NCBI GenBank assembly: GCA_006503475.1 | Contig: RSEH01000180.1 | Span: forward strand, 33,190-97,189 | Origin: Stentor roeselii | Taxonomy: Eukaryota > Ciliophora > Heterotrichea > Heterotrichida > Stentoridae | DNA: 64,000 bases | Direction of reading: 5' to 3' | Part shown: positions 1,942-37,792 of the stretch, one piece after another | Position numbering within the stretch: the stretch's first letter is position 1 | How the letters are laid out: every line of letters begins with the position of its first letter | Translations under genes and position numbers: made by a program | Notes under the pieces: model-generated | Databases searched by the model: none | What the model saw: only the letters and a program-made list of their open reading frames with translations | What the model was told of the DNA's origin: nothing

Positions 1942-3051
1942 CTAGAGAGATAGAATAGATTGATAATCTTCACTATCAGAATCAGAAGACTTGCTGCATT
2001 TAATTTGATTCAAATCGAAATTCCCTTCTCCTTGACGAATAAATTTAAAGATGCTTTTTCTATATCCAAATTTCCAAAGAGTATTCGAGTTTATCCGATA
2101 CTTACAAGAATTAGAAGTTCTTGCATTATAATAGTCCATTTTTTCAACCTCAAGTCTCAAAATCGCTTGTTTTAAATCCTGAAAGTCCGGCCGATGTTTA
2201 ATAATATTCAAAATATAGCATTTTTGTGATTCTCTAAATCGATAAATAGCTTCTAAAACCAAATACTTGTACGTCATAAGTTTCTGTTTTTTTTCAAAGT
2301 ATTCCAAAGTTAGAAGACTTGGGTTGATAGAAAAAACATGACGAATCTTCCTCAAAGTAAATATTTCAAACTTCTCGCTTTTCAAGCATTCCTTACAAAT
2401 GACCTTATGAAGAATGGGACACTTGTAATATTTAACGATTGTCAAGACTTGAAAGCAAATTTTGCAGGTTAATCCTGACAATTCAATGAATTTATTCTTG
2501 GAATTTCCTTCTTTCCAGATGATTTTTCGATCTCGAAGCAAAAAAGTCTGCCAAAGTTCGTCTTCTGAGGCAGCCTGATAAAACTCTTTTGATACAAGGG
2601 AAAGAGTTAAAATATCAGAAATATTCAAAAACTTGAAAATCTCCAGAAAGGCTCTTCTTCGAGTCATTTGGACTTTTTGTAAAGTTTTTCTACGAGCTGT
2701 TAATGATGGTCTTGAGTTTGGGATAGCGACGAGGGTGTTGAAATTATCGAGCCAGGTGTCGAAGATCAGTGATGAGGAATTGTCTAGGTTTATCGTTAGG
2801 TCGGACTTCCAGATGTACTGAATGTTTTTTGGGATGAAGCAGTTGAGGTGGTACCTGGATTTGAAATAGCCTGGCACTGATATGCGAATATTTCCTCTTT
2901 CTATCAGTTCACCGCAACTAAGGCAAGGCGATTTTAGGCAACTTGGAGAGTTTTCAACTGTGAAAATCAATCTTTTGAATCCTGGGATATTATGTGAAAC
3001 CAATTTATTTTTATATTGAAAATTATCAAAAGTGAAATTGAAAGATTTCAT
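1942..3051 (-). CDS. PARP-type zinc finger/F-box/XPA-like zinc protein
   Basis: 369 residues from the first true ATG at 3051 (the frame is open five codons further only through a TTG). Residues 43-71 give C-x2-C-x21-H-x2-C (C43, C46, H68, C71), the PARP-type zinc-finger pattern. An F-box-like helix set follows at about 130-173 (AFLEIFKFLNISDIL, then DELWQTFLLRD). Next comes C-x2-C-x19-C-x2-C (C196, C199, C219, C222) followed by a KFEIFTLRK segment, spaced like the XPA zinc subdomain. The inferred role is a substrate receptor of an SCF-type ubiquitin ligase. Target and DNA-binding ability are unproven. The gene is head-to-head with the WD40 gene at 4013 across a 961-bp AT-rich spacer. Family members at 8954, 35171 and 36746 keep the same architecture and zinc spacings. 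Confidence 0.85.
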   Translation of the reverse strand: MKSFNFTFDNFQYKNKLVSHNIPGFKRLIFTVENSPSCLKSPCLSCGELIERGNIRISVPGYFKSRYHLNCFIPKNIQYIWKSDLTINLDNSSSLIFDTWLDNFNTLVAIPNSRPSLTARRKTLQKVQMTRRRAFLEIFKFLNISDILTLSLVSKEFYQAASEDELWQTFLLRDRKIIWKEGNSKNKFIELSGLTCKICFQVLTIVKYYKCPILHKVICKECLKSEKFEIFTLRKIRHVFSINPSLLTLEYFEKKQKLMTYKYLVLEAIYRFRESQKCYILNIIKHRPDFQDLKQAILRLEVEKMDYYNARTSNSCKYRINSNTLWKFGYRKSIFKFIRQGEGNFDLNQIKCSKSSDSDSEDYQSILSL

Positions 3052-4012
3052 TTTGAAGATTTTCAAAGGATGAGTAAAAATTGTTCAGTTAATTCAAAGG
3101 AAGATTAAAAATTTGAAAATCAGAATTATAGACAAATTGTATATGGAAAAATACAATGAAATTTTTTAAATAGTTCAGAATAAAAGTTTATAATTTGATA
3201 ATCTGATGTTAAAATATCTCCACTAAAGAATTTATTATATTATGTACTCCAAAATTAATCTTTAGTTCTTCAAAATAACCTTTCGATTATATGAACTCTT
3301 CAACGATAATAATATAATTTACTATCTACAAGATTACTAAAGAAAAGGTTAATTCTTTAATATAATATCATTACTTATATGAATTCCATAAAATTTCTTA
3401 TATATTCAGGAATATCATGAAATGCAGAAATTGATATCGAAGAGAAAATCCTATTATTCTAGAATAATTTATTTTGCATCTTTCAGCAAATCATTAATTA
3501 TCTTCGGCTTTGCAATCCTTATTATTTAAATCATAAATTTGATATCAAAGGTCTTTACTTATTTATTTCAAAAAAAAATCTAAAACCTTATCTCTTTTAG
3601 TAAATTATTTGATTTAAAGTATTAAATCTTAAACATTTTTCATTTCTCATTTCAAATTCTCTAAGTTTTGCTTTTAACTAATATATATTAAAAGTTTGCC
3701 TTTAGATCCCGTTTTAAGTGTACAAACAAGAGGTTTAATGATTTACTCATTAAAATTATATTGCCTCTTTCTCTGAAAATAATAATAAAGAAGAGAGATG
3801 AAAATAGTGATTCCTTCGATAAAACTAAACAAAATTGTAAGATTTATGAAATTCAGATAAAACTAATAATAATTAGCAGAGTCTTTTAATAAACAGTAAA
3901 TTTTCTATCTTCCCACAATTTCCCCTAAAATTTACATATATTAGAAGCTAGGTTTAAGGCAACCTTAAATTTCCTGAGTCAGATAATGATAATTCCTAGA
4001 GCTTATATATAA
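3052..4012. promoter_or_regulatory. AT-rich spacer between divergent family genes
   Basis: 961 bp separating the minus zinc-finger/F-box gene and the plus WD40 gene. It holds no open frame of note. It ends in TATATAA immediately before the ATG at 4013, an arrangement also seen before other starts here (for example 12982 and 55624), so 5' leaders are probably very short. It presumably contains both promoters; no specific site can be named. Confidence 0.4.
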
Positions 4013-6172
4013 ATGGGTGATATAATAAAACACTGCAACTGCGGAAGAACAGCAATTTTTATCTGCGAATGCACTCCTGTCTACTCCTGCCAAAGACATT
4101 TATTCGCTCATCTAAAGCAAAATATTCCCCATCGCCTGACTAAAATCACAGATTATTTTCTAATCCAAAAACAAGAAATCCTTGAAATAATCGAAAAAAA
4201 AATCAAAAAGATCCAATCAACCCAAGATGAACTTTCCGAAATCCTTCAAAAATTAATAAATTATGCATCAAAAACCCTAAACGACCTAAAAATTTCTTTA
4301 AATATCCATCAAGAAAAATTGCTAGAACTGAAAAATTCTCTTTTTTTTCATCCATCTCTACATCAAGAAACTACTTCAATTCGAAAACAAGTAAAAAATT
4401 TCGAATCTTCTTTAATGAAAAACTTGTTGGAATTCACAGAAAATTACTTAAAAACAATCAAAGATAAGGTAAAAACATTTGCAAAAGAAAAAAAAGAAAA
4501 TATTCAAAAAACTAGCGCAAATGAATATATCAGTGATGAGATTTCTCCGATGGATCAATGGAAAGTCTCGTTTTTCGTTGATAATATCGGAAAGATCACA
4601 TCTATTTCTCTTAGTAAGTCCGAAAATTTCTTTGCTTTCGGGTCAGAAGATTCGACTGTGAGAGTTTTCAATGTGCCGCAAAAAAGAATGGAATGCATTT
4701 TATTTGGACATCTTGGAAGAGTTTTATGTGTTGAAATGACCAATTCAGAAAAATTTGTCATTTCTGGCTCAGATGATAAAACTATTAGAGTCTGGGATTT
4801 CGCTTCAAAAAAAACACTGAAAATCTTGGAGAATAACAATCAAAAGGTTAAATGGCTTTCATTGTCAGATGATGACAAGTATTTAGTGAGTTCAGGCGCT
4901 AATAACAAGGCTTTTGTTTGGAAATTGTCAGAAAATAAGATTATTTCTAATTTGGATTATATCAGTGGATTTATTAAGCCTTTGTTCGACAGTCCAAGCA
5001 CTTTTGTGTATGCTTATGAAAAAAGCTTGAAAATGAATTCAATTTTAAAATTAAGTTTCAAAAGCTTTTTGTATTCGCACCATATCAGCTGCTTTACTCT
5101 TTGTAACGAGAGAAAGAATGCATTAATAGTATTTAGATGTCTTGATCTTATAATTGAAGTAGTACTGAGAACCTTTACACAAATTCATCAAATTTCTATC
5201 AACCCCCATAAATTTCAAGGAAATTTATTGAGTTTCGGTTACGTCCCAAAGTTAGATTTTTTGTATCTTTCAGACAACATCAAAGAATTTCAGCTAATCT
5301 TTGATAGATCCAAGGAATCAAAACTTATGATTTTAACTAAAGAACATACTTCATTGTATCCATCATCATTATCCTCTATCTTTTATTTTTCATCAGAAAA
5401 CTCTATCGGATTCTTTAAAATTCCTGAAGATGAAATCGAGGTTCTCATATCTTTTTCTTATTTCGACGCAGTTGTTTCAATTACTTCCCACGACAATAAT
5501 TTATTTTTATTCACTTCATTTCAAAATCGAATTTCAGTCTTTAATATCGAACTCGGCACTGTGACTTGTGAACTTCCAGACTTTTGCTGCAAAGTTTCCA
5601 ACCTGGCGATAAGTAAAAGCAACTCATATATAATTTCAACTCATATATGTGGCAAGATAAAAGTGTGGAATTTAGGAAACGTTTCTTTGGTTTCTACTTT
5701 CGCCTTAAAATCAAAAAAATTTACTTGTATTTGTTTTTCTCAACAAGAGAAACTTTTCGCTTTTAGCTCGAATGATAAGAGAGTTACCTTGCATGGCCTT
5801 CAAGATTCTCTCCAGATAAGCAAGTTTGAAATATGCCTGACAACTGTAAAGAGTTTAAGCTTTTCACATGATGATACTTTTTTGTTGATTGGGGAAGAAA
5901 ATGGATGTGTTAGAGGATTTAGGCTTTGTGATATGGTTCAAATATTTTTACTCTGTGGTGCGAAGAAAGGGGCCATGCTTGTTAGAGTCTCGGATAATGG
6001 AAATTTTGTTATTGTTGGAGATGGACAAGGAACGGTAAGGGTTTGGGATAGGAGTCAGGCTAAGGTGGTTGATAATGTTAGAGGAATTAATGAGAGCTTG
6101 AAATGGAGTCAGAAATATCTGGAGTTTAAAACAGATTTTGAAAAGTTTTATAAAGGTCGAAGAAAAGATTAG
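4013..6172 (+). CDS. B-box-like zinc/coiled-coil/WD40-repeat protein
   Basis: 719 residues. The first 40 hold a compact Cys/His cluster (CNC at 8-10, CEC at 18-20, then SCQRHLFAHL and a His at 40), resembling a B-box-type zinc finger. Residues about 45-170 are a Lys/Glu-rich coiled coil. From about 180 to 700 there are WD40-type repeats ending in VRVFNV, IRVWDF, IKVWNL and VRVWDR, enough for one or two propellers. A paralogue lies at 10030 with the same layout, about half identical by eye. The family function is unknown. WD40 propellers bind proteins, and the N-terminal zinc plus coiled coil suggests an oligomeric scaffold or ligase-like protein. It lies divergently next to a zinc-finger/F-box gene, as does its paralogue. 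Confidence 0.85.
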   Translation: MGDIIKHCNCGRTAIFICECTPVYSCQRHLFAHLKQNIPHRLTKITDYFLIQKQEILEIIEKKIKKIQSTQDELSEILQKLINYASKTLNDLKISLNIHQEKLLELKNSLFFHPSLHQETTSIRKQVKNFESSLMKNLLEFTENYLKTIKDKVKTFAKEKKENIQKTSANEYISDEISPMDQWKVSFFVDNIGKITSISLSKSENFFAFGSEDSTVRVFNVPQKRMECILFGHLGRVLCVEMTNSEKFVISGSDDKTIRVWDFASKKTLKILENNNQKVKWLSLSDDDKYLVSSGANNKAFVWKLSENKIISNLDYISGFIKPLFDSPSTFVYAYEKSLKMNSILKLSFKSFLYSHHISCFTLCNERKNALIVFRCLDLIIEVVLRTFTQIHQISINPHKFQGNLLSFGYVPKLDFLYLSDNIKEFQLIFDRSKESKLMILTKEHTSLYPSSLSSIFYFSSENSIGFFKIPEDEIEVLISFSYFDAVVSITSHDNNLFLFTSFQNRISVFNIELGTVTCELPDFCCKVSNLAISKSNSYIISTHICGKIKVWNLGNVSLVSTFALKSKKFTCICFSQQEKLFAFSSNDKRVTLHGLQDSLQISKFEICLTTVKSLSFSHDDTFLLIGEENGCVRGFRLCDMVQIFLLCGAKKGAMLVRVSDNGNFVIVGDGQGTVRVWDRSQAKVVDNVRGINESLKWSQKYLEFKTDFEKFYKGRRKD

Positions 6173-7516
6173 ATATGATAATTATGATTTTAAATTGAGT
6201 TTTAGAATATTTGAATGTTGATGTGAGAGGGAAGTTAAATTAAGAAGAATCGAATAGAATTAATTATTTAAGAGATAAGATATTTTAATGATTTGGCCTA
6301 GACTGCTGAATTTCAAGTTTTTTAAGTCAGATAAATTATATAAATATGAGGTATAGGATTTAAGCAGATGATAGCATTATAATAGGTAATTAATTGACTA
6401 AGAAGGTTTATTTCAATCATCTTTCGATTGATTACTGGCTATTATATTAAATTAAATCTTACTTTCGATAAATTTCAATAATATTAAAAAAAATTCACAA
6501 CAGTTCAGATTATCCTACTAACTAATATAATAACTGATGGTCTTAGTAAATAAAATGAATTCAATATCCAAATAGCAATATAATTTTGATGAAAGCCTTT
6601 ATAAATTGAATAACTTTCTCGAAATCATTTAATATCATGAAACTCGATAGTTTTTAGACCCCCTACTTATATGATTTTGTGTAATTTACCATAAATTTTA
6701 TTTTTAGTCGTTTAGTAGGTGAACACATTCTGATCATATTCCAAAATAAACTTAACACCTTCTCAAGAGAGGATTTTTTAGTAATTCTCAAGGTCTAGGA
6801 ATCACTTGAGCTTGAGTAATAAAAGGAAATCCACTAAATTCAAAATTTATTCAATAAAATTCAAAGTTTTCACCCAAATAAACAGAGTTTTTTTAACTAA
6901 TATGAAAGATTTATCCCAGAGTGATTAATACCAAGTTTGACTCTCTGAGATTGTTTAAGGTAGTTTTTCTAAATCTTTTGGATTATTTCATCTGGTGACT
7001 TTATGTTTTTGTTAAGAAATCAGCATAGCGGATAAATTTTATGTACTGAGTCGTTAATCAGAAGTATGATAATCGAAAAATCACTTGAAACTCAATCAAG
7101 ACATGATATAATCTTAAAACTCAAAAGATCTTGTGATCACTTATTTTTCATTAGAAAAACTCCCTAAGGTTCTTGAAATTTGCACTCTACAACTGAATTC
7201 TCTTCAGTACTTAAAATACTTACAGTGATCTAGAAACAAAAATAATCTCATTGATCAACTGATCACAACTCCATCAATTACCCAAAGATCACTCAAACTC
7301 TCCATCTAAATTTTCACTTTAAACACTTATAAATTCTAAATGATTCACTACTAAATAAATCAACTCACTTATCAAGATCCAACTAAAAAATCTACCCCAA
7401 ATAATCCTTCTAAATTTTCTATGAAAATCTAATTTTTCCATTCTCAGAATCAAAATTCCCTAAAAATTAATAATTTTCCAAACTGAAATTATAAGGAAGC
7501 GTTTTATCTAAATAAA
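6173..7516. other. AT-rich intergenic region
   Basis: 1.34 kb of AT-rich sequence with stops in all frames. I see no gene, structured RNA or clear repeat. It must contain the 3' flank of the WD40 gene and the promoter of the membrane-protein gene at 7517. Confidence 0.5.
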
Positions 7517-8314
7517 ATGAAAGAATTGAAAATCTTCGGATTTAGAAGCACCGTAGTTTGGTCTGTTTTCATCGTATTGATCATTTCAATATTCGCTTTT
7601 ATGCTAGCTTCTCTGGGAGTCGATGACTGGGTGAAGTTAAGACCAGAAGATGCAGACGTCTACGATTTCAAAGGCAACTTGCTGAAGGTGTTAGACGGGC
7701 TAACGAAAATCCCAAATCCAGCTAAATACAAAAATCCCTTAGCGGAGCCAGTCGACATCTCTGACAACGTGTACGGAAAACTATCCTGCTCAGCTGATTT
7801 CCTGATAGCGACCAATCCCCGAGGCGGTTTATACCCAAGTGATAAGCTTTACCTTTCCTGGGGCGACATGTTTGATAACCTTTGGATTGGAGGAGGCTTG
7901 TACCTTGCTTTTGAGATCGTTGCTCTTGTGTGTTGCGTTGTCATTGTTGTTACTTTAGTCTTGTTTTACTATGATGTTTATTACTTCAATCTCAACTTTT
8001 TTAGCTCTGTTTGTATGTGGGTCTCGCATGTCATCGCTATTCTTGGGTGGATTGGCATTGTTGGACCGAGCTTTAAAGGAGATTGTGATGAACTTACTAA
8101 TGGAAGTGGAGCTCCGACTGTCTGTGCACTTCAGGGACCGAAACTTGGAGTTTTTATTTTGATTTATGCGAGCTTTGTTATGGTTATTTATTATGTGTGC
8201 TTTTGTGTCTTTGTGCATAATTTTGATGAAGGGTCCAAAGTTGTTAGTGTTAATGAAATTACTACCAAGAGAGAAACGGAAGCTCAACAGCTTAAAAATG
8301 AAAATTTAGAGTAG
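7517..8314 (+). CDS. Four-helix membrane protein (claudin/PMP22-like topology)
   Basis: 265 residues with four hydrophobic helices at about 12-34, 126-152, 164-184 and 211-233. A large loop of about 90 residues lies between helices 1 and 2, and a short Cys-containing loop (GDC, TVC) between 3 and 4. Both termini are predicted cytosolic; the tail is charged (KRETEAQQLKNENLE). The topology matches claudin/PMP22-like tetraspan proteins, but the diagnostic W-GLW-C-C motif is not clear, so the family is not named. GC content and codon choice look richer than the flanks, as in other expressed genes here. It is isolated between two long AT-rich spacers. Likely location is the plasma membrane or a vesicle; no partner is indicated. 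Confidence 0.75.
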   Translation: MKELKIFGFRSTVVWSVFIVLIISIFAFMLASLGVDDWVKLRPEDADVYDFKGNLLKVLDGLTKIPNPAKYKNPLAEPVDISDNVYGKLSCSADFLIATNPRGGLYPSDKLYLSWGDMFDNLWIGGGLYLAFEIVALVCCVVIVVTLVLFYYDVYYFNLNFFSSVCMWVSHVIAILGWIGIVGPSFKGDCDELTNGSGAPTVCALQGPKLGVFILIYASFVMVIYYVCFCVFVHNFDEGSKVVSVNEITTKRETEAQQLKNENLE

Positions 8315-8953
8315 GTAATAGAGTAGATTTAGAAAGACAGGATTTATTAGTTTTTTGTGATTTTTTTTGGATTTTTGGATTTATAGGGATTGGCTTTTTC
8401 GAGGGAATGTTATTTAGTGAACTAGGCACTGTATACTTTATTAAAACTAGAAAATTTTACGATCTTAGAATACCCAGTAAAATAGGATTGAATCCTGTTG
8501 AAAAATTGGAAGTTTTTCAAAAACTATTTAAAATATGATAAAACCTTTAATACCAGACATTATATTTATTTTTTTCGTAGATACTAGCATTTGAAATAAG
8601 TTTATCAACAAGATATTAATTATAAACTAAGTTTTTAGTAAATTTATCAAGGTCGTCCTAGAAAATCTGTTCAATTTCAGACTCATAAAATTTCTACAGA
8701 AATCATTAAAAAAACAACTTATTATTTATCTCCTGTACCAACAAGCAGGATAATAAAAAACTTGTATTCTATTTGCATTCACTTTAAATCTTTAATTATA
8801 ATATAAAGATTTGGATCCTCTAATGAACTACATTTCTATACTAATTGAAACTCATCAAAAAAAAATTTCAATAAAAATTAACTAAAACTGATAAAATGAT
8901 TTACAACCCTTTAAACTTATCTCAAATATATTTATCTAAATATAACTTAGTTC
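8315..8953. other. AT-rich intergenic region between convergent genes
   Basis: 639 bp of AT-rich DNA between the 3' ends of the membrane-protein gene and the minus zinc-finger/F-box gene. No gene or repeat is visible. It is much longer than other convergent gaps in the window (7-30 bp). Confidence 0.5.
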
Positions 8954-10018
8954 CTAGTAGCAATCAAACATTAACTGTTTTTCTCCAATATAATCATCAA
9001 AATTCAACTCTTTACCTTTCCTGATAAAATCAAACATTTTTTCAAACAAACTTCCTCTAACAACTCTCTGATAATCCGATTTCCACAATTCCAAATCATA
9101 ATACTTATTATCCATGACTTTCAAGTCCATCAAACTAACATCCAAGTCTTCAAAGCTCTTCAAAACTTCTAAATTCGTGCAAAATTTTCCAAGAAACTCA
9201 AGAACTTTTGCCTTTCTTTGATTTCTGAACAACATAAGCCCCTTTTCAAACAACACCCTATAAGTGACTTTAGAAAATCCATCATAAGTCCACCATGAAA
9301 CTTTAACCAAATCCGAGTTAATTCCATAAATCTTCATAATCTGAGTCTTGTTAATCAACCTAAACTTATCAAGTTTTAAGCAATTTTTACACAAAGTCCT
9401 TTTGATCATAGGGCACCTGCTGAAAGTTTCATCATCAGGCCTAAGCTTGCATTCAATACAATTCGAGTAAAAGCAGGTAACATAAGTCTTTTTCACGTCA
9501 GTTTCACTTGAATCAGGCCTGAAAGACTTGAAATCTCTTGCAAGTAAAAATTCCCAAAGTTCTTTTTCCCAGATCAGGGTGTAAAAGTTTTTATTTACCT
9601 TTGAAAGTGAATGAACCAGGTCGAAAACATCGAGAAATTTAAAAACTTCTAAAAAAATTCTTCGATTTTGAACTCGCACTTCAAATTTCTGAATATTTGA
9701 CAGATTTGGACAGTATGGTGCCCTGTTCAACGGGAAATAATTCGCATTCCAAGCGTTGAGCCAGTCTTTAAAGACTGCCATGGAAGACTCGCTCAGAACC
9801 ATCTTCACATCTTCTATTAAAATGAACTGGTTTGACTTTGGAATGAAGCAGTTTAAGTGAAAATAATCGGATTTTACCATGATTTTGTGGTAGACGACTC
9901 GGATTTCACCCTTTTCGAGTTTTTTGGTACAGGTGGTGCATTCGGTTTTATCTGATCTGGAGTTTTCAACGTGAAAGTTGATGCGAAATAATTCTTTTCG
10001 AGGGGAAAAGTATCTCAT
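8954..10018 (-). CDS. PARP-type zinc finger/F-box/XPA-like zinc protein
   Basis: 354 residues. C27, C30, H54 and C57 form C-x2-C-x23-H-x2-C with the PARP-finger context (FHVENSRSDKTECTTC, then GEIRV). The F-box region is about 119-162 (IFLEVFKFLDVFDLV, KELWEFLLARDF). C187, C190, C210 and C213 form C-x2-C-x19-C-x2-C with a middle RCP. The following KFRLINKTQIMKIYGI closely recalls the XPA stretch that follows its zinc finger (a K-x-LI-x-KT pattern and then a YLL-like turn). This is the best case for an XPA-like subdomain in the family. The gene starts only 11 bp from the divergent WD40 gene at 10030. Inferred function is an SCF substrate receptor with nucleic-acid-type zinc modules; this is not established. 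Confidence 0.87.
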   Translation of the reverse strand: MRYFSPRKELFRINFHVENSRSDKTECTTCTKKLEKGEIRVVYHKIMVKSDYFHLNCFIPKSNQFILIEDVKMVLSESSMAVFKDWLNAWNANYFPLNRAPYCPNLSNIQKFEVRVQNRRIFLEVFKFLDVFDLVHSLSKVNKNFYTLIWEKELWEFLLARDFKSFRPDSSETDVKKTYVTCFYSNCIECKLRPDDETFSRCPMIKRTLCKNCLKLDKFRLINKTQIMKIYGINSDLVKVSWWTYDGFSKVTYRVLFEKGLMLFRNQRKAKVLEFLGKFCTNLEVLKSFEDLDVSLMDLKVMDNKYYDLELWKSDYQRVVRGSLFEKMFDFIRKGKELNFDDYIGEKQLMFDCY

Positions 10019-10029
10019 ATTGGAATATA
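10019..10029. promoter_or_regulatory. 11-bp gap between divergent start codons
   Basis: Only ATTGGAATATA separates the minus start codon (10016-10018) from the plus ATG (10030). Both N-terminal zinc domains begin within the first 10-30 codons, so neither start can move far downstream. The two transcripts must have tiny leaders, or each promoter must lie inside the other gene's coding region. Confidence 0.7.
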
Positions 10030-12186
10030 ATGAAAGAATTCATAAAAAACTGCAGCTGTCTAAGAAGAGCTGAGTTTTACTGTGATTGCTCTTCTTTTTA
10101 CTCTTGCGGAAGACACTTATTCGCTCATCTTAAAACGAAGAAGACTCATCACCTTACTCGAATCACTAAAGCCCTGCAAGAGAAATACTTGAAAACAAGA
10201 GAAACTATAAAAAAAACAATAAAGTTCATACAGTCAAACCAAAATCAACTTTCAGAAATGTTGAATAATTTAATTGATTTTGCATCTAAAACTTTAAATG
10301 ACCTGAAGAATCATTCGGATTATTTGGAACAAAATCTCATCAAATTAAAAGAAAATATTTTTTTCAATGAGTCAGCTCGCCAAGAAGCCGAAGCCAAATC
10401 CAAGACTTATCAAAAAGAAACTCTCAAATATAAAAAATCTCTAATTTTTAATCTTTCAGAAATCAGTAAAAAATATCAAAAAAAGAGCAGAATACCCAAA
10501 AATATTCAGAAAATCAAAACATTCAATGAGGTTAGTCTAGCTAAACATCCTAGTATCAATTATTTTGATGAAAATAACTGGAAGAAGAGGTTTTTTGCTG
10601 AAAACATCGGAAAAATCACTTCAATTTCGGTAAGTAAATCTGATAAATTTATTGCTTTCGGGTCTGAAGACTCGACTGTTAGGGTTTTCAACCTGTTGAC
10701 AAAGACGATGGAACTTACTCTTATAGGCCATCTTGGAAAAGTCTTAAGTGTTGAGATAAGCAATTCAGAAAAGTTTGTGATTTCTGGATCAGATGATAAC
10801 ACTATTCGAGTCTGGGATTTAAACTCAGGATCAAACCTGAAGATTTTGAAAAATTGTAAAGAAAAAGTTAAATGGCTTTGCTTATCAGGAGATGATAAGT
10901 ACTTAGTGAGCTCAGGTGGTGATGATAAGGGTTTTATTTGGAAACTAGAAGAAAATTCAATAATATACAAATTAGAAAAAATCAACACTTATGTTAAACC
11001 TGTCTTTAAGGACCTGGAAACACTATTATACATTGATGGATCATTATTAATATTCTTAAAAATACTAACATTTCAAAGAATACCTTTTTATGCTAATTAT
11101 CCTATAAACGGCCTGTCACTTTGCAGTAATAATAAAAATGCCTTGATATCCTCTTCTTGCACTAAAACTTTTCTTCAAATCAATTCCGAAAATCAACAGG
11201 TTATCGGTAGTATTGAATTCAATCCAATCATAATGAAAAATGGCTTGATTCAGCTTGCCTACATTTCAAAAATAGATAAAATATTCATCTCAGATCTAGT
11301 AAGCAAAATAAACATAATTGACCCTAAAAACGACCCAAGTAAAGGTATTTATTTGCACCATCCTCACACATCAATAATTCAATCATCAAATTCAGAAATT
11401 ATTTACTTTTCAACAAAAAACACGCTCGAACTTTACAACATCACAAAAAATCATTTCGAGTCAATCACAAAATTTACTTATTTCGATGTCGACATTTCAA
11501 TCATGTCTCACGACAACAGCTTATTGTTATACCCATCATTTGAAAACAAAGTCTCAGTCTTTAACATTGAGTTAGAGCAAATGGCTTGTGAGTTGCCAGG
11601 TCACAGTTGCGAGGTAACTTCAATTGCAATAAGCAAAACAAATACAAAAATCGTTTTAACTTATTCAAATGGTGATTTAAATCTGTGGAATTTAAGAGAT
11701 GTGTCTTTAATCTCGAGTTTTAGTTCAGAATTAAAAATATTCACCTGCATTTGTTTTTCTCATCAAGAAAACTTTTTAGCATTTAGCTCGAATGATAATT
11801 CTGTTACTTTGCTTGAACTTCCTTACTGCATCATTGTTGGTAAGTTCGATATTTGTCTGAGTACTGTGAAAAGTCTTTGTTTTAATAATGATGATCTTCT
11901 CTTGTTGATTGGAGAAGTTAATGGCTGTGCTAGAGGATTCAATTTTTATGAAAAAGATCAGGTTTTTTTACTTTGTGGAGCGAAAAATGGAGCTTTGCTT
12001 GTCACTGCCTCTGATAATGGTCGAGTTGTTCTTGTAGGTGATGGAAACGGCATTCTCAGGGTCTGGGACCGTGATCAGGCCAAGATGGTCGCTAGAGTCA
12101 CTGACTTGCAGGAAAGTCTGCAGTGGATTAAAAAATTTCAAGAGTTTCGAACAGTCTTCGAAAACTTTTTTACGGAGATATTATAG
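10030..12186 (+). CDS. B-box-like zinc/coiled-coil/WD40-repeat protein
   Basis: 718 residues, paralogue of the gene at 4013. The N-terminal Cys/His cluster keeps identical spacing (CSC at 8-10, CDC at 18-20, SCGRHLFAHL, His 40). A Lys-rich coiled coil (about 45-170) and WD40 repeats (about 185-700; VRVFNL, IRVWDL, LNLWNL, LRVWDR) follow. The most conserved stretch with the paralogue surrounds residues 198-300, at the first three repeats. The middle region (about 300-500) is more diverged in both. The function is unknown. The pairing with a zinc-finger/F-box gene is repeated at both loci, which suggests duplication of a two-gene unit or co-regulation. Confidence 0.87.
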   Translation: MKEFIKNCSCLRRAEFYCDCSSFYSCGRHLFAHLKTKKTHHLTRITKALQEKYLKTRETIKKTIKFIQSNQNQLSEMLNNLIDFASKTLNDLKNHSDYLEQNLIKLKENIFFNESARQEAEAKSKTYQKETLKYKKSLIFNLSEISKKYQKKSRIPKNIQKIKTFNEVSLAKHPSINYFDENNWKKRFFAENIGKITSISVSKSDKFIAFGSEDSTVRVFNLLTKTMELTLIGHLGKVLSVEISNSEKFVISGSDDNTIRVWDLNSGSNLKILKNCKEKVKWLCLSGDDKYLVSSGGDDKGFIWKLEENSIIYKLEKINTYVKPVFKDLETLLYIDGSLLIFLKILTFQRIPFYANYPINGLSLCSNNKNALISSSCTKTFLQINSENQQVIGSIEFNPIIMKNGLIQLAYISKIDKIFISDLVSKINIIDPKNDPSKGIYLHHPHTSIIQSSNSEIIYFSTKNTLELYNITKNHFESITKFTYFDVDISIMSHDNSLLLYPSFENKVSVFNIELEQMACELPGHSCEVTSIAISKTNTKIVLTYSNGDLNLWNLRDVSLISSFSSELKIFTCICFSHQENFLAFSSNDNSVTLLELPYCIIVGKFDICLSTVKSLCFNNDDLLLLIGEVNGCARGFNFYEKDQVFLLCGAKNGALLVTASDNGRVVLVGDGNGILRVWDRDQAKMVARVTDLQESLQWIKKFQEFRTVFENFFTEIL

Positions 12187-24121: not shown

Positions 24122-24123
24122 AT

Positions 24124-27872: not shown

Positions 27873-27901
27873 TAGAAGGCTTTCATTAATTTATATTCAT
27901 G

Positions 27902-30171: not shown

Positions 30172-31170
30172 CTAAACAGCTCTAGCTTCAATAACAACCT
30201 GAAACAAAGCAGGTCTAATTTCAACAATCCCAAACCCAGCCTTCTCTAAAATTCTTTCAAACTCCTTAATCCCCCTATCCTTTCCACTTAAACACATAAG
30301 TAAAATATGATCCAAAGCGAGTATCCCCTGATAATTTTTCGAATTTTCATCAATAAGTCTTTCAACAACGAACATCTTATCCCCATTCTTCAAAACTTTT
30401 CTGCAATTACTCAAAATCTTGACACAATCCTGATCATTCCAGTCATGTAAAATATTTTTCATAACAATACAATCAAACCCATCAGGTACATAATCAAAAA
30501 AATCTCCTTCAAAGAACAAGACCCGTTGATTCATTCCTTGTTTTTCAATATTTTCCTTCGCCGCATTGCAAATATCATGTCGATCAAACACAGCAAAATT
30601 AGCATTGATGTATTTTTTCGCTAACCCAATGGCTAAATTTCCAGTAGCTCCTCCGACATCTAACATTTTCGCATTTTCTTCAATTTTTATCCCTTCAATG
30701 ACTTCAGCAGAATTAGAGATCACCAAATAAGACATGCAATTCTGGAAATTTGAAAAAACTTCTGGAAGATCAGATAATTCCTCGAAGAACTTTCGACGGT
30801 TCAAGGTTTCCATTGGAGGCTTTCGTGATTTTAACTGAATATCTGCGTGGGTTAATAACTCGGAAAGGAATGAACTTCCAGTCCAGGCCCAAAGGTTGTG
30901 GCTGAATTGAGTTGTTAGAAGAAGTGAGTCTTTTGTGTTTGACCATTTGTTTGAAATTTGGTCGTGTTTGAATAGGTCGAATGAGGATGCGATTCGCAAG
31001 TATCTGAATAATTTTTCGGATTCCATTTCAGTTGATGAGCAAAGCTCTTCTGTGGTTTTTGGAGATTCTTGAAGTTTTTCGGCGATGTGGTTTTTTACGA
31101 GGGAGGAGATTATTGGAAGTGACATCCCGTAAAGTAAAAATTTTAGGTTTAGTTGGAAATCTTCTGCCAT
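30172..31170 (-). CDS. SAM-dependent O-methyltransferase (COMT/ASMT class)
   Basis: 332 residues. An N-terminal winged-helix dimerisation domain (about 5-100) precedes a Rossmann SAM-binding domain. Motif I is MLDVGGATGNLAIGLAK at about 168-184, the acidic residue of motif II is in FAVFDRHD, and the catalytic-region motif is VMKNILHDWNDQDCVKIL, with the His expected to act as base. VFVVERL-like and C-terminal helices complete the fold. This class methylates small phenolic or indole hydroxyls in plants, bacteria and animals. In Stentor a polyketide-derived pigment is known, so a link to pigment or signal metabolism is possible but is only a guess. It is not clustered with a synthase here. Confidence 0.9.
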   Translation of the reverse strand: MAEDFQLNLKFLLYGMSLPIISSLVKNHIAEKLQESPKTTEELCSSTEMESEKLFRYLRIASSFDLFKHDQISNKWSNTKDSLLLTTQFSHNLWAWTGSSFLSELLTHADIQLKSRKPPMETLNRRKFFEELSDLPEVFSNFQNCMSYLVISNSAEVIEGIKIEENAKMLDVGGATGNLAIGLAKKYINANFAVFDRHDICNAAKENIEKQGMNQRVLFFEGDFFDYVPDGFDCIVMKNILHDWNDQDCVKILSNCRKVLKNGDKMFVVERLIDENSKNYQGILALDHILLMCLSGKDRGIKEFERILEKAGFGIVEIRPALFQVVIEARAV

Positions 31171-31479
31171 GTTTTTGGAATAGCTTCCACAGAAAAATTA
31201 GAGAAAATTATTTATCAGCAATCCAAGCCTTATGATGAATATTTTAAAGTTTATGATTAAAAAAATGCAAACTATTTACAATTCGAATTCTCTTCTAATG
31301 AAATTAGAAAAACCTCAAATTTAAACATAAAAATCTTACTAATTAAATAGAAAAACCTCAATTTTAAACATAAAAATCTTCTAATAGCAAATTCTTATCA
31401 AAACATCACCTTTCTAATAATTCACCCTTCTAAATCTTATCCTTTACTATGTAATATTATTATAAACTTCAATAATTTC
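31171..31479. promoter_or_regulatory. Divergent intergenic spacer
   Basis: 309 bp between the starts of the O-methyltransferase (minus) and a small plus gene. It is very AT-rich and carries an imperfect 43-bp-period duplication (see 31306-31380). Confidence 0.45.
31306..31380. repeat. Two-copy direct repeat, 43-bp period
   Basis: AGAAAAACCTCAAATTTAAA at 31306 recurs with one substitution at 31349, each continuing into CATAAAAATCTT. About 32 bp are shared per copy. It lies in the divergent spacer, so a duplicated regulatory site is possible. Confidence 0.7.
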
Positions 31480-31932
31480 ATGGAAAAGAAGCCGCTTCTA
31501 AGCGCGAGATCATCATCAAACATCCGTCAAAAGGTAGAAATTTCAAACATAAACGATTTCCTAAAAAGAATCGATGAAAAGCTCAAAAACAGCAACACCA
31601 GCACTCCAACTAAACCAAAACTAACGATCTCCAAAAAGCCTCCATCAAAAAAGCCCCCAAGACCAAGTAAGTCGCCATCAAAACCGTCAGGTTTTGAGTG
31701 CACATCTTTAGACCTAGACGCTTTGAAGCAGCTTCAAACATTTTCAAGTGGTTCAGAGGAAAAACTATTGAATTTGAAGCAAAAGCTAAGAAGTTCAAAG
31801 CAACTAATTAAAAAGTACCAATGCGAGTTATCAAAAGCCTACGAAAGAATTGCAGAATTAGAGTCAATTGTAAATAAAAGAGACTTACCCAATTCCCACG
31901 AGTCAACAAAACAGATATTTAATAAAAAGTAG
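31480..31932 (+). CDS. Small basic Ser/Pro-rich protein with C-terminal coiled coil
   Basis: 150 residues. The N-terminal 70 are Lys/Ser/Pro-rich and probably disordered (KKPPSKKPPRPSKSPSKPSG). Residues about 85-135 are helical with heptad character (LLNLKQKLRSSKQLIKKYQCELSKA). No domain is recognised. Composition suggests a microtubule- or nucleic-acid-associated accessory protein, which is a guess. It converges with the SAM-domain gene, with 8 bp between stops. Confidence 0.6.
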   Translation: MEKKPLLSARSSSNIRQKVEISNINDFLKRIDEKLKNSNTSTPTKPKLTISKKPPSKKPPRPSKSPSKPSGFECTSLDLDALKQLQTFSSGSEEKLLNLKQKLRSSKQLIKKYQCELSKAYERIAELESIVNKRDLPNSHESTKQIFNKK

Positions 31933-31940
31933 CAAACCAC

Positions 31941-33131
31941 TTAATTATCCCATCCAGCCACATCAAATTTTTCACGATTTTTTCCTTCATCCAGGTTTTT
32001 TTCAACGTTTTTTCCTTCAGTTCTTGCAGAAGAGGGTCTTAAGCTACTTTTCTGTGAAATTGCTTGGATTTCTTCTGAAGGTTTATAAGGAATATAACTG
32101 AAACCTTCCCATTTTATCTCTTCTTTCGCTTTATTTTCGCTGGGTTGCGTGATTAACTCGCTGATTTTCATGTTTTTTTCAGTTTCTTGAGAAGTTGGCT
32201 GGAATAATGCGAGATTTTTTCCAACTGTCGCTGGTTTGCTTGACACTGGCGGGCGGTTCAGGTGAATAACGACTTCTTTTTCTTTCAACTTTGAGAAATC
32301 TTCTTGAATTTGAACTGGATTCGCCTTTGGTAGTCTTTTTTCTGAGTTTTCAGTTGATTTTATTCCTAGATTTGAAGAACGGGACTCAGATGAATGCAGG
32401 TCGTTTGAATCTGTGAAGGTTTCTTGAGTTTTCATGGAAATATTAGGTTTTTCTATGGTTTGAATAAGGAAAGGCCCTTGTTTTGGTGAAGGTTTCGGAA
32501 GAAGTGGCTTGGAGGTCGTTTCTTTTGAAGAGGTTTTAGAAAGAGGGGATTTTTTACTTTCAAGACTTGCGAAAATCTCTGCTGTTGAAATGAAATTTGA
32601 TTTTTCTGAAGGTTTAGAGATTTCAGGTTTCGAAACTTGTGGAGATGGGCTGTGAGCTGATTTTTTTAAAGATTCTCTTGCAGGGCTCTCATTGGCTGTA
32701 GACTTTAAAATACTCTTCGGTTTTACAGGCTCAGTGAAAGTGACTCTTCCAGGGCTTTCAGCTGATGACTTGATAGGAAGTGTATTGATTTCAGGTGATT
32801 TATTCCCTTCCTTGATTTCCCTGATTTTTTTAAGGATTTTCAGACGATGTCCTAAAACGATTCCGATTTCTTCAAGATGATTTTCTTGAATTTCCATTAA
32901 AATTTCCAGGTCATCAATTCCATTTTCCTTCATCAGTGAAGAGTACTTCTGAAGTCCGATTTCTTCCAAGACCTGATCAACTTCATTGATTTTTTTCTCA
33001 TCTTGTGCGATTTTCAGTTTTTTTTTATCATTTCCTTGATTTTTTTCCATGATCATCCTGAGTTCCCTCCACCTTTCTTCACGTTCTTTTGCAGCTTCTT
33101 CGACTTTTTTATGTATTTTGATTTTTTTCAT
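31941..33131 (-). CDS. SAM (sterile alpha motif) domain protein
   Basis: 396 residues from the first ATG at 33131 (the open frame extends five codons more only via TTG). After a charged N-terminal helix, a SAM domain occupies about 45-105: VLEEIGLQKYSSLMKENGID, then DLEILMEIQENHLEEIGI and a final LGHRLKILKKI helix. The remaining 290 residues are Ser/Pro/Lys-rich and disordered, with several phosphosite-like SP motifs. SAM domains mediate homo- or hetero-polymerisation, so a scaffold role is likely; partner unknown. Its start codon is 6 bp from that of the divergent coiled-coil gene at 33138. Confidence 0.85.
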   Translation of the reverse strand: MKKIKIHKKVEEAAKEREERWRELRMIMEKNQGNDKKKLKIAQDEKKINEVDQVLEEIGLQKYSSLMKENGIDDLEILMEIQENHLEEIGIVLGHRLKILKKIREIKEGNKSPEINTLPIKSSAESPGRVTFTEPVKPKSILKSTANESPARESLKKSAHSPSPQVSKPEISKPSEKSNFISTAEIFASLESKKSPLSKTSSKETTSKPLLPKPSPKQGPFLIQTIEKPNISMKTQETFTDSNDLHSSESRSSNLGIKSTENSEKRLPKANPVQIQEDFSKLKEKEVVIHLNRPPVSSKPATVGKNLALFQPTSQETEKNMKISELITQPSENKAKEEIKWEGFSYIPYKPSEEIQAISQKSSLRPSSARTEGKNVEKNLDEGKNREKFDVAGWDN

Positions 33132-33137
33132 ATTATT
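33132..33137. promoter_or_regulatory. 6-bp gap between divergent start codons
   Basis: CAT-ATTATT-ATG: only ATTATT separates the minus and plus ATGs. If both starts are right, each gene's promoter must overlap the other's coding region. The minus gene could instead start at an internal Met (codon 21) upstream of its SAM domain. Confidence 0.55.
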
Positions 33138-33929
33138 ATGTACCAAGATGCTCTAAAAAGCCAAATCAATTCATTGCGACATCAACTCGACCTAAGCAAA
33201 AAAGTTCATGAGTCCGAGTTAAAGTCATTAAAAGACGACTTTGACCGAAAAATCGATTTGGCATTAAAAGAAAAAAACTGTTCTTTATCTCTTCAAAAAG
33301 AAAAAATCCAAGACTTGCAGCGGTCAGTCCAAGAAGAAAAACAACGAAGCCTTAATTTAAGAAAAGAACTTTTTGACCTTGAAAAGATCTGCAGCGAAGA
33401 AATCAACTCGGCGCTTGTAAAACGGAAGGTTTTAGAAGATGACGTCAAATTTTTAAATGAAGAGGCAAAGTCCCACAAGACTCAAGTCAGGATCTTGCAA
33501 AGTGAGTTGAATGCAGTGGAAAAAGAACATGAACAAAGCATCTTATTCGTTCATGGCCGATTTGATTCCAGCTACTCGACCTTAACAAGCCAAAACATTG
33601 GAAATCAAGGAAAAATCACAGCTTTAAACAGAGAAATCTCAGGACTTAAAGAAAAATTGAAACATCAAGAAGTTCATAATGAAGCCGACATCAAAACCTT
33701 AGAAGAAGCTTTGAGGTCCACTTATAACACAATCGAACTTCAAACTTTCAGCATTGAAAAGTTGAGAAAAGCGGTTGAAGAGTTTTTAAAGGAAAAAGTA
33801 GCTTTTAATAAACAGCAGAGTAACTTCGAGCAGCAGGAAAAACTGATGAACGAGGAAAATGTAAGCTTGAAGGAACTAATTGACAAACTTGAAAGAAAGA
33901 TCTACGGAAGGTCAAGCCGAAGCAAGTAA
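33138..33929 (+). CDS. Coiled-coil protein, unknown
   Basis: 263 residues from ATG 33138. The frame is open further upstream, but that part is a Phe-rich shadow of the minus gene. Almost the entire protein is heptad-patterned coiled coil (MYQDALKSQINSLRHQLDLS to the C terminus), ending in a basic GRSSRSK tail. No other domain is present. It is a likely structural or tethering component of the cytoskeleton, by composition only. It converges with the MRH-protein gene, with 29 bp between stops once that gene's last exon is included. Confidence 0.75.
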   Translation: MYQDALKSQINSLRHQLDLSKKVHESELKSLKDDFDRKIDLALKEKNCSLSLQKEKIQDLQRSVQEEKQRSLNLRKELFDLEKICSEEINSALVKRKVLEDDVKFLNEEAKSHKTQVRILQSELNAVEKEHEQSILFVHGRFDSSYSTLTSQNIGNQGKITALNREISGLKEKLKHQEVHNEADIKTLEEALRSTYNTIELQTFSIEKLRKAVEEFLKEKVAFNKQQSNFEQQEKLMNEENVSLKELIDKLERKIYGRSSRSK

Positions 33930-33958
33930 TCTAGTAAAACTATTAAACTTTAAAAGCC

Positions 33959-34636
33959 TCAAACAACGTCATAAGTTTCTTTCGTGTTCGTCGCGATTAT
34001 CTTGTTTTTCGCGTAGCCGACAACACCTAGACTCTCGAATCCTTCATCGTCAAAGCTCTCGACACATATCCAAACCAAGATCACAGCAAGAACTGAGTAA
34101 ATCCTGAATATTTCTTACGAAAAAAGCACGATTTTCGTTGCAAAACTCGTTTGGTACTCTTTAGAACACCCACTTTTCCCCTTTTTTTCTAAAATCGTTG
34201 TGCATTGTCCAGGATCAGAAGATAAGAAAAATTCACTTTCACTGGCACTGCAGGTTAATTTAAACTCAATGCGATGTTTAAAATTATTGAAATAACGATT
34301 TTTGCAAATACTTCCGCCTTCGTAAAATAAGACTAGACCTGAAGTGTCTTTTGTTTTAAAAGGAGTCAAGTAACTGATTTCGTGACGACCGAGAATCACG
34401 CAAGAATCTTCTGTTTTTGAAAAAGATAATGCTGAGGCTTTTTGACCCTGACAGGTTTTTTCCACGTTTTGGCCGAAGTTGAAGAGGATTATTTCAGTTT
34501 CTGTCTCTAGGGAGTAGTCGGAATTTGACTGAAGCGACTCCCAGTTGTATTCTAAAGATGTGTCGTAGTCTACCCAGTATAACTCGTCTGAAATGCACTG
34601 GGTCATCAGAAAAAAGGTTAAAATGATTAACTTCAT
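33959..34636 (-). CDS. MRH-domain type I membrane protein (M6P-receptor/Atg27-like), one 15-nt intron
   Basis: Exons 34119-34636 and 33959-34103 (minus) give 220 residues. A signal peptide (MKLIILTFFLMTQCIS) precedes a luminal domain of about 150 residues with paired cysteines. The stretch LVLFYEGGSICKN, then HRIEFKLTCSASES, is the hallmark of mannose-6-phosphate-receptor-homology domains (YxGGxxC, R, C). Without splicing the protein ends at KIVLFS. Splicing removes the TAA and adds a membrane helix (IVLFSIYSVLAVILVWICV) and a 28-residue cytosolic tail. The tail has GY residues but no clear dileucine. Such proteins act in Golgi-endosome sorting or autophagy membrane traffic. Whether it binds M6P is not evident. 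It is divergent from the gene at 34648, 11 bp apart. Confidence 0.82.
34104..34118 (-). other. 15-nt intron of the MRH-protein gene
   Basis: On the coding strand GTAAGAAATATTCAG. It overlaps the apparent stop codon (34115-34117); splicing extends the frame into a transmembrane helix. A is at position 10. Confidence 0.85.
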
Positions 34637-34647
34637 TGTAAAAAATT
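34637..34647. promoter_or_regulatory. 11-bp gap between divergent start codons
   Basis: TGTAAAAAATT separates the minus MRH-protein start from the plus ATG at 34648. The minus start is fixed by its signal peptide. Confidence 0.65.
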
Positions 34648-35160
34648 ATGGAAAGTCTTTTTGCCTGGCTTTTTCCTTTAATGCTTGTTTTTGAGGATTT
34701 GGCTCTTCGGTTGAATCAGGTTTTTTATAGCTTTAGTCCTTTTCATTACTTGTTTTTGGATTTGGTTGTTTTGGTACTTGTTGTGAAAACCACTAAATAC
34801 ATCAAATATCGATGTAGGCTTCAGAATGCTCAGAGAAATGAAGGAATTTCCAAAGATGTTGAAGGGATGTTTGAGGGTTTCAAGGATTTGATGAATGAAA
34901 AGTCGAAGGGTGTTTTAGGGAAATCAGATGAAAGGATTAATTTTAGAATTATTGATGGACTTACTCAGAAAGTCAAACAACTTCAGGATATACATTCGAG
35001 TTTTCAAGCGGAAGTTATTGACTCGCATATTAAGATTTTGAAAGTTATTAACCAGTGTGAAGAGAAAAACTTTTTGATGCCACCTGAAAAAGAATTAGTT
35101 GAACCTGATTCAGCTCTTCCACCTTTAGATGATGATGATATAGAAAAAGATTTAATATAA
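34648..35160 (+). CDS. Small membrane-anchored protein with cytosolic helical domain
   Basis: 170 residues. The N terminus has one or two hydrophobic helices (about 4-20 and 30-48: FHYLFLDLVVLVLVV), followed by a basic stop-transfer (KYIKYRCR). Residues about 60-140 are amphipathic and helical. The tail is very acidic (PPLDDDDIEKDLI). No family is recognised. Topology suggests a short endomembrane protein with a cytosolic coiled-coil-like domain. Its divergent partner is an MRH-type sorting receptor, so a shared endomembrane function is possible. The next gene's ATG is only 10 bp after its stop. Confidence 0.65.
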   Translation: MESLFAWLFPLMLVFEDLALRLNQVFYSFSPFHYLFLDLVVLVLVVKTTKYIKYRCRLQNAQRNEGISKDVEGMFEGFKDLMNEKSKGVLGKSDERINFRIIDGLTQKVKQLQDIHSSFQAEVIDSHIKILKVINQCEEKNFLMPPEKELVEPDSALPPLDDDDIEKDLI

Positions 35161-35170
35161 TAGATAGGTA

Positions 35171-36226
35171 ATGTCTGAAAAGAGAATAGTCTTATCTACT
35201 CTACAGTATATTGTAGAACCAAGTAAATCCAGTAATACCCAATGTAAAACCTGTGCTCAGAAAATAATCACAGGAATTATAAGAATAGTCATCAATAGAT
35301 GCGGAAAAGCTCCTTTGTACTTTCATCTAAATTGCTTTGATCATATAAACCAGTATCTCATTAAAGACGATCTCATCATTAAACTATCAGGTAATGACTT
35401 AGAAATTTTCGAAAAGTGGTTAGAAGACTGGAACAAAAACTACTACTGCCTCGACTACAAACCCATAAAACAATCAATCCCAAAACAATCCTTAAACTCC
35501 CTAAAAGTTCCTAACAAAAGAGTATATCTCGAAATATTCAAATTCCTCAACCTCCAAGACATCCTCAAATCAATCACCTTTGTAAACAAACAATTTTACC
35601 AAACAACCTGGTCTGAAGAACTCTGGGAATTTTTATTAAAACGTGATTTTTCTGTAAGTTGTTCAGAAAGTCACCCAAAACAAGTCTATGCAACTAATTT
35701 TAGTCTTGCTTGTGTCGATTGCTTGAAAATGACCAGCATTGATGATTTTTTTAGATGTCCTTTTCTGAAAAAAACAATTTGTGCTACTTGTTATAATTGT
35801 TCGAAATATGATATTCTTATTCAATCTGATCTTCAAGTAAGTTATGGAATCGACTTTGATAAACTTGATATTGAAGCTTGTACAACAGATTATCATAACA
35901 AAGTTGTTTATTCTTGTGTTTTTGAAGATAGATTGAAGAGGTTTAGAAAAGCACAAAAGGAAAAAGTTGTTGAAATGATGAAGGTTTTAGGACCTGAACA
36001 CCCTGCTCTGGCTGATGTGTTGAATATTGATGTTGATCAAATGGATATTAAAACTGATTTAATGAAAAATCATAGAAAAGTTATCAATTATAATATTCCT
36101 TATGTTCAGTGGCCGTTTTTTGAGAAAATTTTTCATTATATTAGATCTGGAAAAGGAAAAATAACTCAAATGAATATAAAAAAACATATAGAGCATGATT
36201 TTAAAAAATTAAGTTTAGTTAATTGA
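35171..36226 (+). CDS. PARP-type zinc finger/F-box/XPA-like zinc protein
   Basis: 351 residues. C25, C28, H52 and C55 form C-x2-C-x23-H-x2-C in PARP-finger context (VEPSKSSNTQCKTC, GIIRI, YFHLNCF). The acidic helix GNDLEIFEKWLEDWN corresponds to the conserved end of that domain. The F-box is about 116-160 (VYLEIFKFLNLQDIL, EELWEFLLKRDF). C181, C184, C204 and C207 make the C-x2-C-x19-C-x2-C cluster, followed by KYDILIQSDLQVSYGI, which is XPA-like. It is nearly identical over residues 72-193 to the next gene, and less so outside. Codons in that block are unusually rich in C-ending choices compared with the AT-rich rest. It is the likely product of tandem duplication plus gene conversion. Confidence 0.87.
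   Translation: MSEKRIVLSTLQYIVEPSKSSNTQCKTCAQKIITGIIRIVINRCGKAPLYFHLNCFDHINQYLIKDDLIIKLSGNDLEIFEKWLEDWNKNYYCLDYKPIKQSIPKQSLNSLKVPNKRVYLEIFKFLNLQDILKSITFVNKQFYQTTWSEELWEFLLKRDFSVSCSESHPKQVYATNFSLACVDCLKMTSIDDFFRCPFLKKTICATCYNCSKYDILIQSDLQVSYGIDFDKLDIEACTTDYHNKVVYSCVFEDRLKRFRKAQKEKVVEMMKVLGPEHPALADVLNIDVDQMDIKTDLMKNHRKVINYNIPYVQWPFFEKIFHYIRSGKGKITQMNIKKHIEHDFKKLSLVN
35384..35748 (+). repeat. 365-bp near-identical block (copy 1)
   Basis: Matches 36962-37326 with about 11 mismatches counted by eye. Flanking coding sequence of the two genes is much more divergent, especially upstream. It covers the end of the zinc finger, the F-box and the first part of the XPA-like cluster. Confidence 0.85.
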
Positions 36227-36745
36227 TAGAAATGATAATCAGGTTAGAAGATGATGAAATTATGTTGAAGCTATTTCATTTAAATATAGATCTTATTAAT
36301 TTATGTTGTAATTATATAGATATTATGTAAATTCAAGATGCATAGATAAATAATTTAAGGTAATAATAAATTATAATTATTATCATTCAAACATCAGTAA
36401 AAATATAATTATAAAGTATTATATCTTAGTTAAAATAATGGAATCTTTATTGATTTCTATGAAATTGAACTTTAATTAAAATAAAGATTGATAATTTTCA
36501 GGGATTAATTAAATATACAACAATATTTGAGTAATGAAGAGTTGTTAATATTGTTATACTATAAATAAGCATCAATCAGGTAAAGAAATTATACTATAGA
36601 TTTTCAATATTCTTTAAAAATCTAAAAGAATTAAGCATAATTCAGTCAGTTGTTTGATAATTAAAGAGATTTTTCTTTTCAGTTAAATCGTTTGAAAAAA
36701 GTACATTATGTAAACTAGGATATAATGTGATCTTAATAAATAATC
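36227..36745. other. AT-rich intergenic region between tandem paralogues
   Basis: 519 bp, extremely AT-rich, no open frame. It does not resemble the 10-bp spacer in front of the other copy, so the duplication did not carry an obvious shared promoter. Confidence 0.5.
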
Positions 36746-37792
36746 ATGTCCTACAGAAAAACCGTATTATTTACTATTCAATTCACAGTGGAACCAAGTA
36801 AATCAGGTAGCACTCACTGCAGCACTTGCACTTTAAAGATAAACCTGGGAGTAATACGAATAATAATTAACAAGTGGATGAAAAGTTCTCTATACTACCA
36901 TCTTCAGTGTTTCAAGCCAAAAGTCAATCAGTATATCTTTAAAGACGACCTACAAATCAACCTATCAGGTAATGACTTAGAAATATTCGAAAAGTGGTTA
37001 GAAGACTGGAACAAAAACTACTACTGCCTCGACTACAAACCCATAAAACAATCAATCCCAAAACAATCCTTAAACTCCCTAAAAGTTCCTAACAGACGAC
37101 TATATCTCGAAATATTCAAATTCCTCAACCTCCAAGACATTCTCAAATCAATCATCTTTGTAAACAAACAATTTTACCAAACAACCTGGTCTGAAGAACT
37201 CTGGGAATTTTTATTAAAACGTGATTTTTCTGTAAGTTGTTCAGAAAGTCACCCAAAACAAGTCTATGCAACGAATTTTAGTATGGTTTGTGTCGATTGC
37301 TTGAAAATGACCAGTATTGATGATTTTATCAGATGTCCTTATCTGAAAAAAAACTTGTGTTATTCTTGTTATCGAAGTAAGAAATATAACTTGCTTAAAC
37401 AGTCTTGTATTAAAGTCCGTTATGGAATCGATCTCGATAAACTTGATGTTGAACCGGGTACGACTGATGGTCACAATAAAGTTGTTTATTTTTGTGTTTT
37501 TGAAGCTAGTTTGGCAAGGTTTAGAAAAGCGCAAAAGGAAAAAGTTGTTGAAATGATGAAGGTCTTAGGACCTGAACACCCTGCTATCATTGATGTGCTG
37601 AATATTGACACTAAAAACATGGATATTGAAACTTCTCAAAATTATCATTACGGGAAAACATTTAAACCGAATATTCCTATTGTTGAATGGCCTTTTTTTG
37701 AGAGTATTTTTCATTTTATTCGGTCTGGGAAGGGAAAGATCACTGAAAAAATTTTGAAGAAGAGAATTGAAGATGAATTTTTGAAGAATTAG
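36746..37792 (+). CDS. PARP-type zinc finger/F-box/XPA-like zinc protein
   Basis: 348 residues, tandem paralogue of 35171. C25, C28, H52 and C55 carry the PARP-type finger (VEPSKSGSTHCSTC, GVIRI, YYHLQCF). The F-box is about 117-161. C182, C185, C205 and C208 form the second zinc cluster, and the following KYNLLKQSCIKVRYGI keeps the XPA-like pattern. The N-terminal 70 residues are only about half identical to the neighbour, while the next 120 are nearly identical. All zinc ligands are intact in both copies, so both are probably functional. Role inferred as SCF substrate receptor. The C-terminal helix with EIILK-type basic residues is shared. Confidence 0.86.
   Translation: MSYRKTVLFTIQFTVEPSKSGSTHCSTCTLKINLGVIRIIINKWMKSSLYYHLQCFKPKVNQYIFKDDLQINLSGNDLEIFEKWLEDWNKNYYCLDYKPIKQSIPKQSLNSLKVPNRRLYLEIFKFLNLQDILKSIIFVNKQFYQTTWSEELWEFLLKRDFSVSCSESHPKQVYATNFSMVCVDCLKMTSIDDFIRCPYLKKNLCYSCYRSKKYNLLKQSCIKVRYGIDLDKLDVEPGTTDGHNKVVYFCVFEASLARFRKAQKEKVVEMMKVLGPEHPAIIDVLNIDTKNMDIETSQNYHYGKTFKPNIPIVEWPFFESIFHFIRSGKGKITEKILKKRIEDEFLKN
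36962..37326 (+). repeat. 365-bp near-identical block (copy 2)
   Basis: Partner of 35384-35748, 1578 bp downstream in direct orientation. Confidence 0.85.

Follow-up and report, generated by a model that had tools for sequence, protein, structure and literature searches.

What is encoded by five related genes whose products carry, in one chain, an F-box and a zinc finger of the type best known from PARP1, a sensor of DNA breaks? The genes lie in a 64,000-nucleotide stretch (the window) of contig RSEH01000180.1 (C95) of the ciliate Stentor roeselii. The first-pass annotation of this DNA described a PARP-type finger, an F-box and an XPA-like zinc subdomain, and suggested a DNA- or chromatin-directed ubiquitin system. 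This interpretation is supported in part. The fusion of a PARP-type finger to an F-box in one protein is real; the XPA-like part is not proven, and the DNA-directed ubiquitin reading is not favoured. From the order of finger, F-box and second zinc module, together with the Skp1 and cullin genes of the genome, we consider it fairly probable that the family proteins are substrate receptors of the Skp1-cullin-F-box (SCF) type carrying a repurposed PARP finger. The analysis also shows the fold predicted for the finger, the conservation of the ligands, and purifying selection between the more similar members; that the proteins bind zinc and Skp1, act in a ubiquitin ligase, and recognise targets through the finger is what we infer.

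All five open reading frames (ORFs) are open in the standard code at the positions first proposed. On the minus strand are C95a (1-504; first 168 of 336 codons, the remainder lying beyond the window edge, with the ORF complete at 336 aa in the contig), C95b (1942-3051; 369 aa plus stop), and C95c (8954-10018; 354 aa plus stop), and on the plus strand are C95d (35171-36226; 351 aa plus stop) and, in tandem to it, C95e (36746-37792; 348 aa plus stop). Protein searches of the genome (44.4 Mb, 522 contigs), together with reading of the loci, gave 11 intact family ORFs, five on C95 and one each on contigs C7, C42, C112, C206, C120, and C521. The link to C521 is weak (E = 0.005 from C95b to C521, 0.019 in the reverse direction), the C95c protein search of the genome missed it, and a Pfam scan found neither zf-PARP nor F-box in it; we counted it as a member on the strength of its two zinc motifs and its layout. 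A twelfth copy, on C242, is truncated by the contig end, and two copies are decayed: the frame matched in the second C42 copy contains 13 stops, and what is left on C153 is a weak relic (E = 8.3e-4). These copy counts are lower bounds. All 11 intact members retain eight of eight predicted zinc ligands, which account for eight of the 14 invariant columns among the 410 in the alignment, a pattern beyond what chance would produce. All three standard stop codons end family genes, and the genetic code therefore looks standard.

The first zinc motif, C-x2-C-x21-23-H-x2-C, was confirmed in all five window genes, and the C-C-H-C ligands occur in PARP-finger order in all 12 fingers (the C242 fragment included) and are invariant in the 11 full members. 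On the minus strand, the finger lies at 229-468 in C95a (approximately residues 13-92 with its C-terminal helix, whose extent is set by analogy with the C95e model; ligands C26, C29, H52, and C55), 2722-2967 in C95b (approximately residues 29-110; a weak zf-PARP match, E = 0.0099), and 9734-9991 in C95c (approximately residues 10-95; ligands C27, C30, H54, and C57). On the plus strand, it lies at 35192-35446 in C95d (approximately residues 8-92) and, with its helix, at 36767-37021 in C95e (approximately residues 8-92), where the block means of the predicted local distance difference test (pLDDT) are 69-91 over residues 11-90. The modelled finger is predicted to match the PARP-finger fold across the entire domain, C-terminal helix included. 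When alignment columns were shuffled with the ligand columns fixed, none of 150 shuffles equalled the match of the real finger profile to PARP1 Zn1. Single-sequence scores for zf-PARP (PF00645) fall under the Pfam gathering cut-off of 39.3 bits (best 29.9 in the genome search, 17 for C95b, no match for C521), and the profile-level support for the assignment exceeds them.

The F-box-like segment proposed for all five genes was likewise matched in each (best E from 9.1e-9 to 0.034), in three of them above a Pfam cut-off. It spans, on the minus strand, 31-162 in C95a (approximately residues 115-158; PF12937, 5.9e-8, above cut-off), 2527-2655 in C95b (approximately residues 133-175; PF12937, 9.1e-9, above cut-off), and 9530-9667 in C95c (approximately residues 118-163; PF00646, 21.3 bits, above its cut-off, with PF12937 under its own). 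On the plus strand, the segments at 35516-35650 in C95d and 37091-37225 in C95e (approximately residues 116-160 in both) score under the Pfam cut-offs. Across the family, 10 of 11 members have an F-box-like match at E<=0.1; at least C95a, C95b, C95c, and C206 exceed a Pfam F-box cut-off, and C95d, C95e, C120, and C521 fall under it. The family profile finds KDM2A (5.6e-4), Skp2 (0.0076 at best), and FBXW chains (0.023 at best), and none of 150 column shuffles, with no column fixed, equalled the real profile in its match to the Skp2 F-box. Partners of an SCF receptor are encoded in the genome, with six matches to Skp1 and eight to cullins, seven of the latter over the cut-off. Three other F-box loci in the genome, inspected by eye only, did not show the family architecture. 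An F-box ORF on contig C356 is unlike the family; it looks like an F-box combined with ApaG, the arrangement of FBXO3.

Pairwise identity among members ranges from 20 to 73%. In the phylogenetic tree, C95d groups with C95e (support 100/100), and C95c with C7, C42a, and C112 (100/99), and the deeper forks are not resolved. For five close pairs, we obtained 20 pair-by-region ratios of nonsynonymous to synonymous divergence (dN/dS); 16 are between 0.13 and 0.39, with a single value of 1.02 and three that are saturated, so that purifying selection looks to be acting on these genes. The middle region of C95d and C95e (103 codons) is 97% identical, compared to 57-69% in the other three regions, and the two genes differ more in each of their zinc modules. 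Diversifying selection on these modules was considered and rejected, as the low dS of the middle region (0.07) points to recent gene conversion, which accounts for the identity pattern.

In the mechanism that we consider best, the F-box in the middle of the chain would bind Skp1 (with cullin and E2), and the substrate or its supporting structure would be held by the PARP-type finger at the N-terminus and the C4-zinc/helical module at the C-terminus. The family has grown through duplications, some in tandem and some dispersed, and certain copies have undergone gene conversion or decay; hence separate copies probably recognise separate targets.

Another reading is that the finger still grips DNA breaks or ends as in PARP1, and that the F-box brings ubiquitin to the proteins there. 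The predicted fold is the same as that of DNA-bound PARP1 fingers; in 10 of 12 fingers, Arg occupies the position equivalent to R34, a residue with a known role in the PARP1 finger; and a crude count puts the net charge of 11 of the 12 between 0 and +6 (PARP1 Zn1, +3). Further, a six-frame genome search for zf-PARP at E<=1 returned ten matches, all ten within the family, although it missed the family fingers of C95b and C521, so that similarly divergent fingers elsewhere may escape too, and introns could hide further ones. PARP catalytic matches number 17 in the genome; three of these loci were read and two (C193 and C508) Pfam-scanned. The latter two encode PARP1/2-type enzymes in which a lysine-rich tail, instead of zinc fingers, precedes the WGR, PARP_reg, and PARP domains, and the scan found no zf-PARP in either at E<=0.01. 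With all ten zf-PARP matches in the family and the two scanned enzymes finger-less, the sensing job could have moved. However, the C7 finger has a net charge of -6, and the PARP1-type DNA grip, assigned to R18/R122 in PMC8150716, is not conserved, the R18-equivalent position being basic in only 6 of 12 fingers. The Cys-to-His spacing is 21-23 residues in 11 of the 12 and 26 in the twelfth, compared to 28 in PARP1 Zn1, and the base-stacking loop is therefore shortened. According to PMC8150716, this loop adds only modestly to binding, and a shorter loop is by itself still compatible with DNA binding. A DNA-end-directed ligase is thus possible but not favoured, and we regard it as unlikely. Quite improbable is the scenario in which the break finger left the PARP enzymes and was captured by SCF ligases, whose receptors, with diverged specificities, now mark broken or new chromosome ends with ubiquitin.

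Alternatively, the proteins may not belong to a ubiquitin ligase at all, and the F-box-like helices may do another job in a zinc-scaffold protein such as a chromatin, RNA, or cytoskeletal adaptor. A Leu-Pro pair at the start is a defining feature of the F-box, and it is not matched here: in the window members, C120, and C206, the aligned segment starts only at position 8-10 of the profile. Several members also score low for F-box, as listed above, and confidence is low across the F-box region in the models of C95c and C95e. Nevertheless, the segment is kept family-wide, with F126, K143, and Y146 (C95c numbering) invariant in 11 of 11 members, and late profile starts are common in this genome, where 19 of 28 F-box-like matches begin at position >=6 (16 of 25 without the family's three). 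A scaffold role therefore seems unlikely to us, and we retain the SCF-receptor reading.

A third proposal concerns one module and can be compatible with an SCF receptor. The second zinc motif, C-x2-C-x19-C-x2-C, was confirmed in each of the four genes that the window holds in full, as well as in the completed C95a. It lies at 2386-2466 in C95b (minus strand; residues 196-222), 35711-35791 in C95d (plus strand; residues 181-207), and 37289-37369 in C95e (plus strand; residues 182-208); in C95c, the whole C-terminal module occupies 8990-9460 (minus strand), with the C4 zinc motif at residues 187-213 and a helical part to residue 343. The module may be a very divergent XPA/Rad14-type DNA-binding domain, making the family F-box/XPA proteins with a PARP finger in front; F-box proteins with XPA_N/XPA_C hits are mentioned in PMC10810185. 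The sole hint among the XPA tests is the fold comparison, in which one model (C95c) gives modest Rad14/XPA matches. By contrast, the family proteins have no XPA_N or XPA_C Pfam match, a PDB profile search and hhalign with shuffled controls gave no XPA support for the module, and sequence-profile comparison gave none beyond the zinc knuckle, 41 of 150 shuffles reaching the real score against human XPA. The XPA-like K-x-LI-x-T/Q stretch of the first-pass annotation is seen in some members (KFRLINKT, KFDLLTQN) and is not family-wide. We therefore treat XPA-like identity as a lead from modelling that is not proven, and consider it rather doubtful.

Members on C7, C42, C120, and C242 are within approximately 10 kb of a contig end. 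Among six contig starts inspected, only that of C153, with its decayed copy, has the repeat CCCTAACA, which PMC9942806 gives as the telomere repeat of the heterotrich Blepharisma; with one of six, a subtelomeric origin of the family is no more than possible. On C95, two WD40 proteins with a Cys/His-rich N-terminus (window 4013-6172 and 10030-12186) each adjoin a family member. This N-terminus is presumably B-box-like, with no Pfam B-box among the matches listed. The second of these ORFs (plus strand) is head to head with C95c (minus strand), their starts 11 bases apart, and the 5' ends must therefore be very short or overlapping. The closest genome relative of the N-terminal part of the 4013-6172 protein is the 10030-12186 protein (41% identity, E = 1.1e-29; next 2.0e-5), and ORFs of related appearance sit near the C7 and C42 members. 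We considered a link to the family, but the first 188 residues of one neighbouring WD40 protein have 24 genome matches at E<=0.01, and adjacency therefore proves little. Similar-looking small membrane-protein ORFs recur along C95 (window 7517-8314; L038 9367-9825; L039 602-1396). In viral contigs, the family alignment gave 93 pattern matches, none confirmed, and a single-protein query gave no match; when predicted viral proteins were searched by fold, the matches were an unnamed protein of 801 residues (3.0e-4) and two proteins annotated as PARP-type (0.031 and 0.039).

Our literature searches found, among the papers listed, no description of a zf-PARP and F-box pairing, although domain databases such as InterPro, which were outside the search, may list it; nor did they find anything on F-box in the Stentor macronuclear genome or on ciliate XPA/F-box zinc-finger proteins. 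In the available passages of a paper on the Trypanosoma cruzi ubiquitin pathway, zf-PARP is named among RING-ligase domains and an F-box fusion is not described. Should the finger still recognise DNA ends, the family would couple break sensing to ubiquitylation without PARP; if not, it would exemplify a DNA-damage finger turned into a protein-recognition module.

Compared to known systems, the family finger shares with PARP1 Zn1/Zn2 and the DNA ligase III finger (PF00645) the C-C-H-C ligands and, over the entire domain with its C-terminal helix, the predicted fold; 76-93 residues align at 22-28% identity. Unlike them, it is not joined to a PARP or ligase, and it departs from PARP1 in its shorter base-stacking loop, non-conserved grip arginine, and score under the Pfam cut-off. 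Behind the F-box, a C4 knuckle followed by a helical part, with a modest structural match, recalls XPA/Rad14 and the F-box proteins of PMC10810185; the likeness to XPA/Rad14 has no sequence support, and the ligand spacing differs (x19 in nine members, x17 in one, and x16 in another of the 11; x17 in human XPA). According to PMC10810185, its F-box clade lacked the conserved cysteines, whereas our family keeps four. With the SCF proteins Skp2, KDM2A, and FBXW, the family shares F-box helices and core residues, but its Leu-Pro start is unmatched. F-box proteins usually read substrates through leucine-rich repeats (LRR), WD40, or Kelch repeats; here, instead of LRR or WD40 in the same chain, zinc modules flank the F-box, making these F-box proteins with an unusual recognition module.
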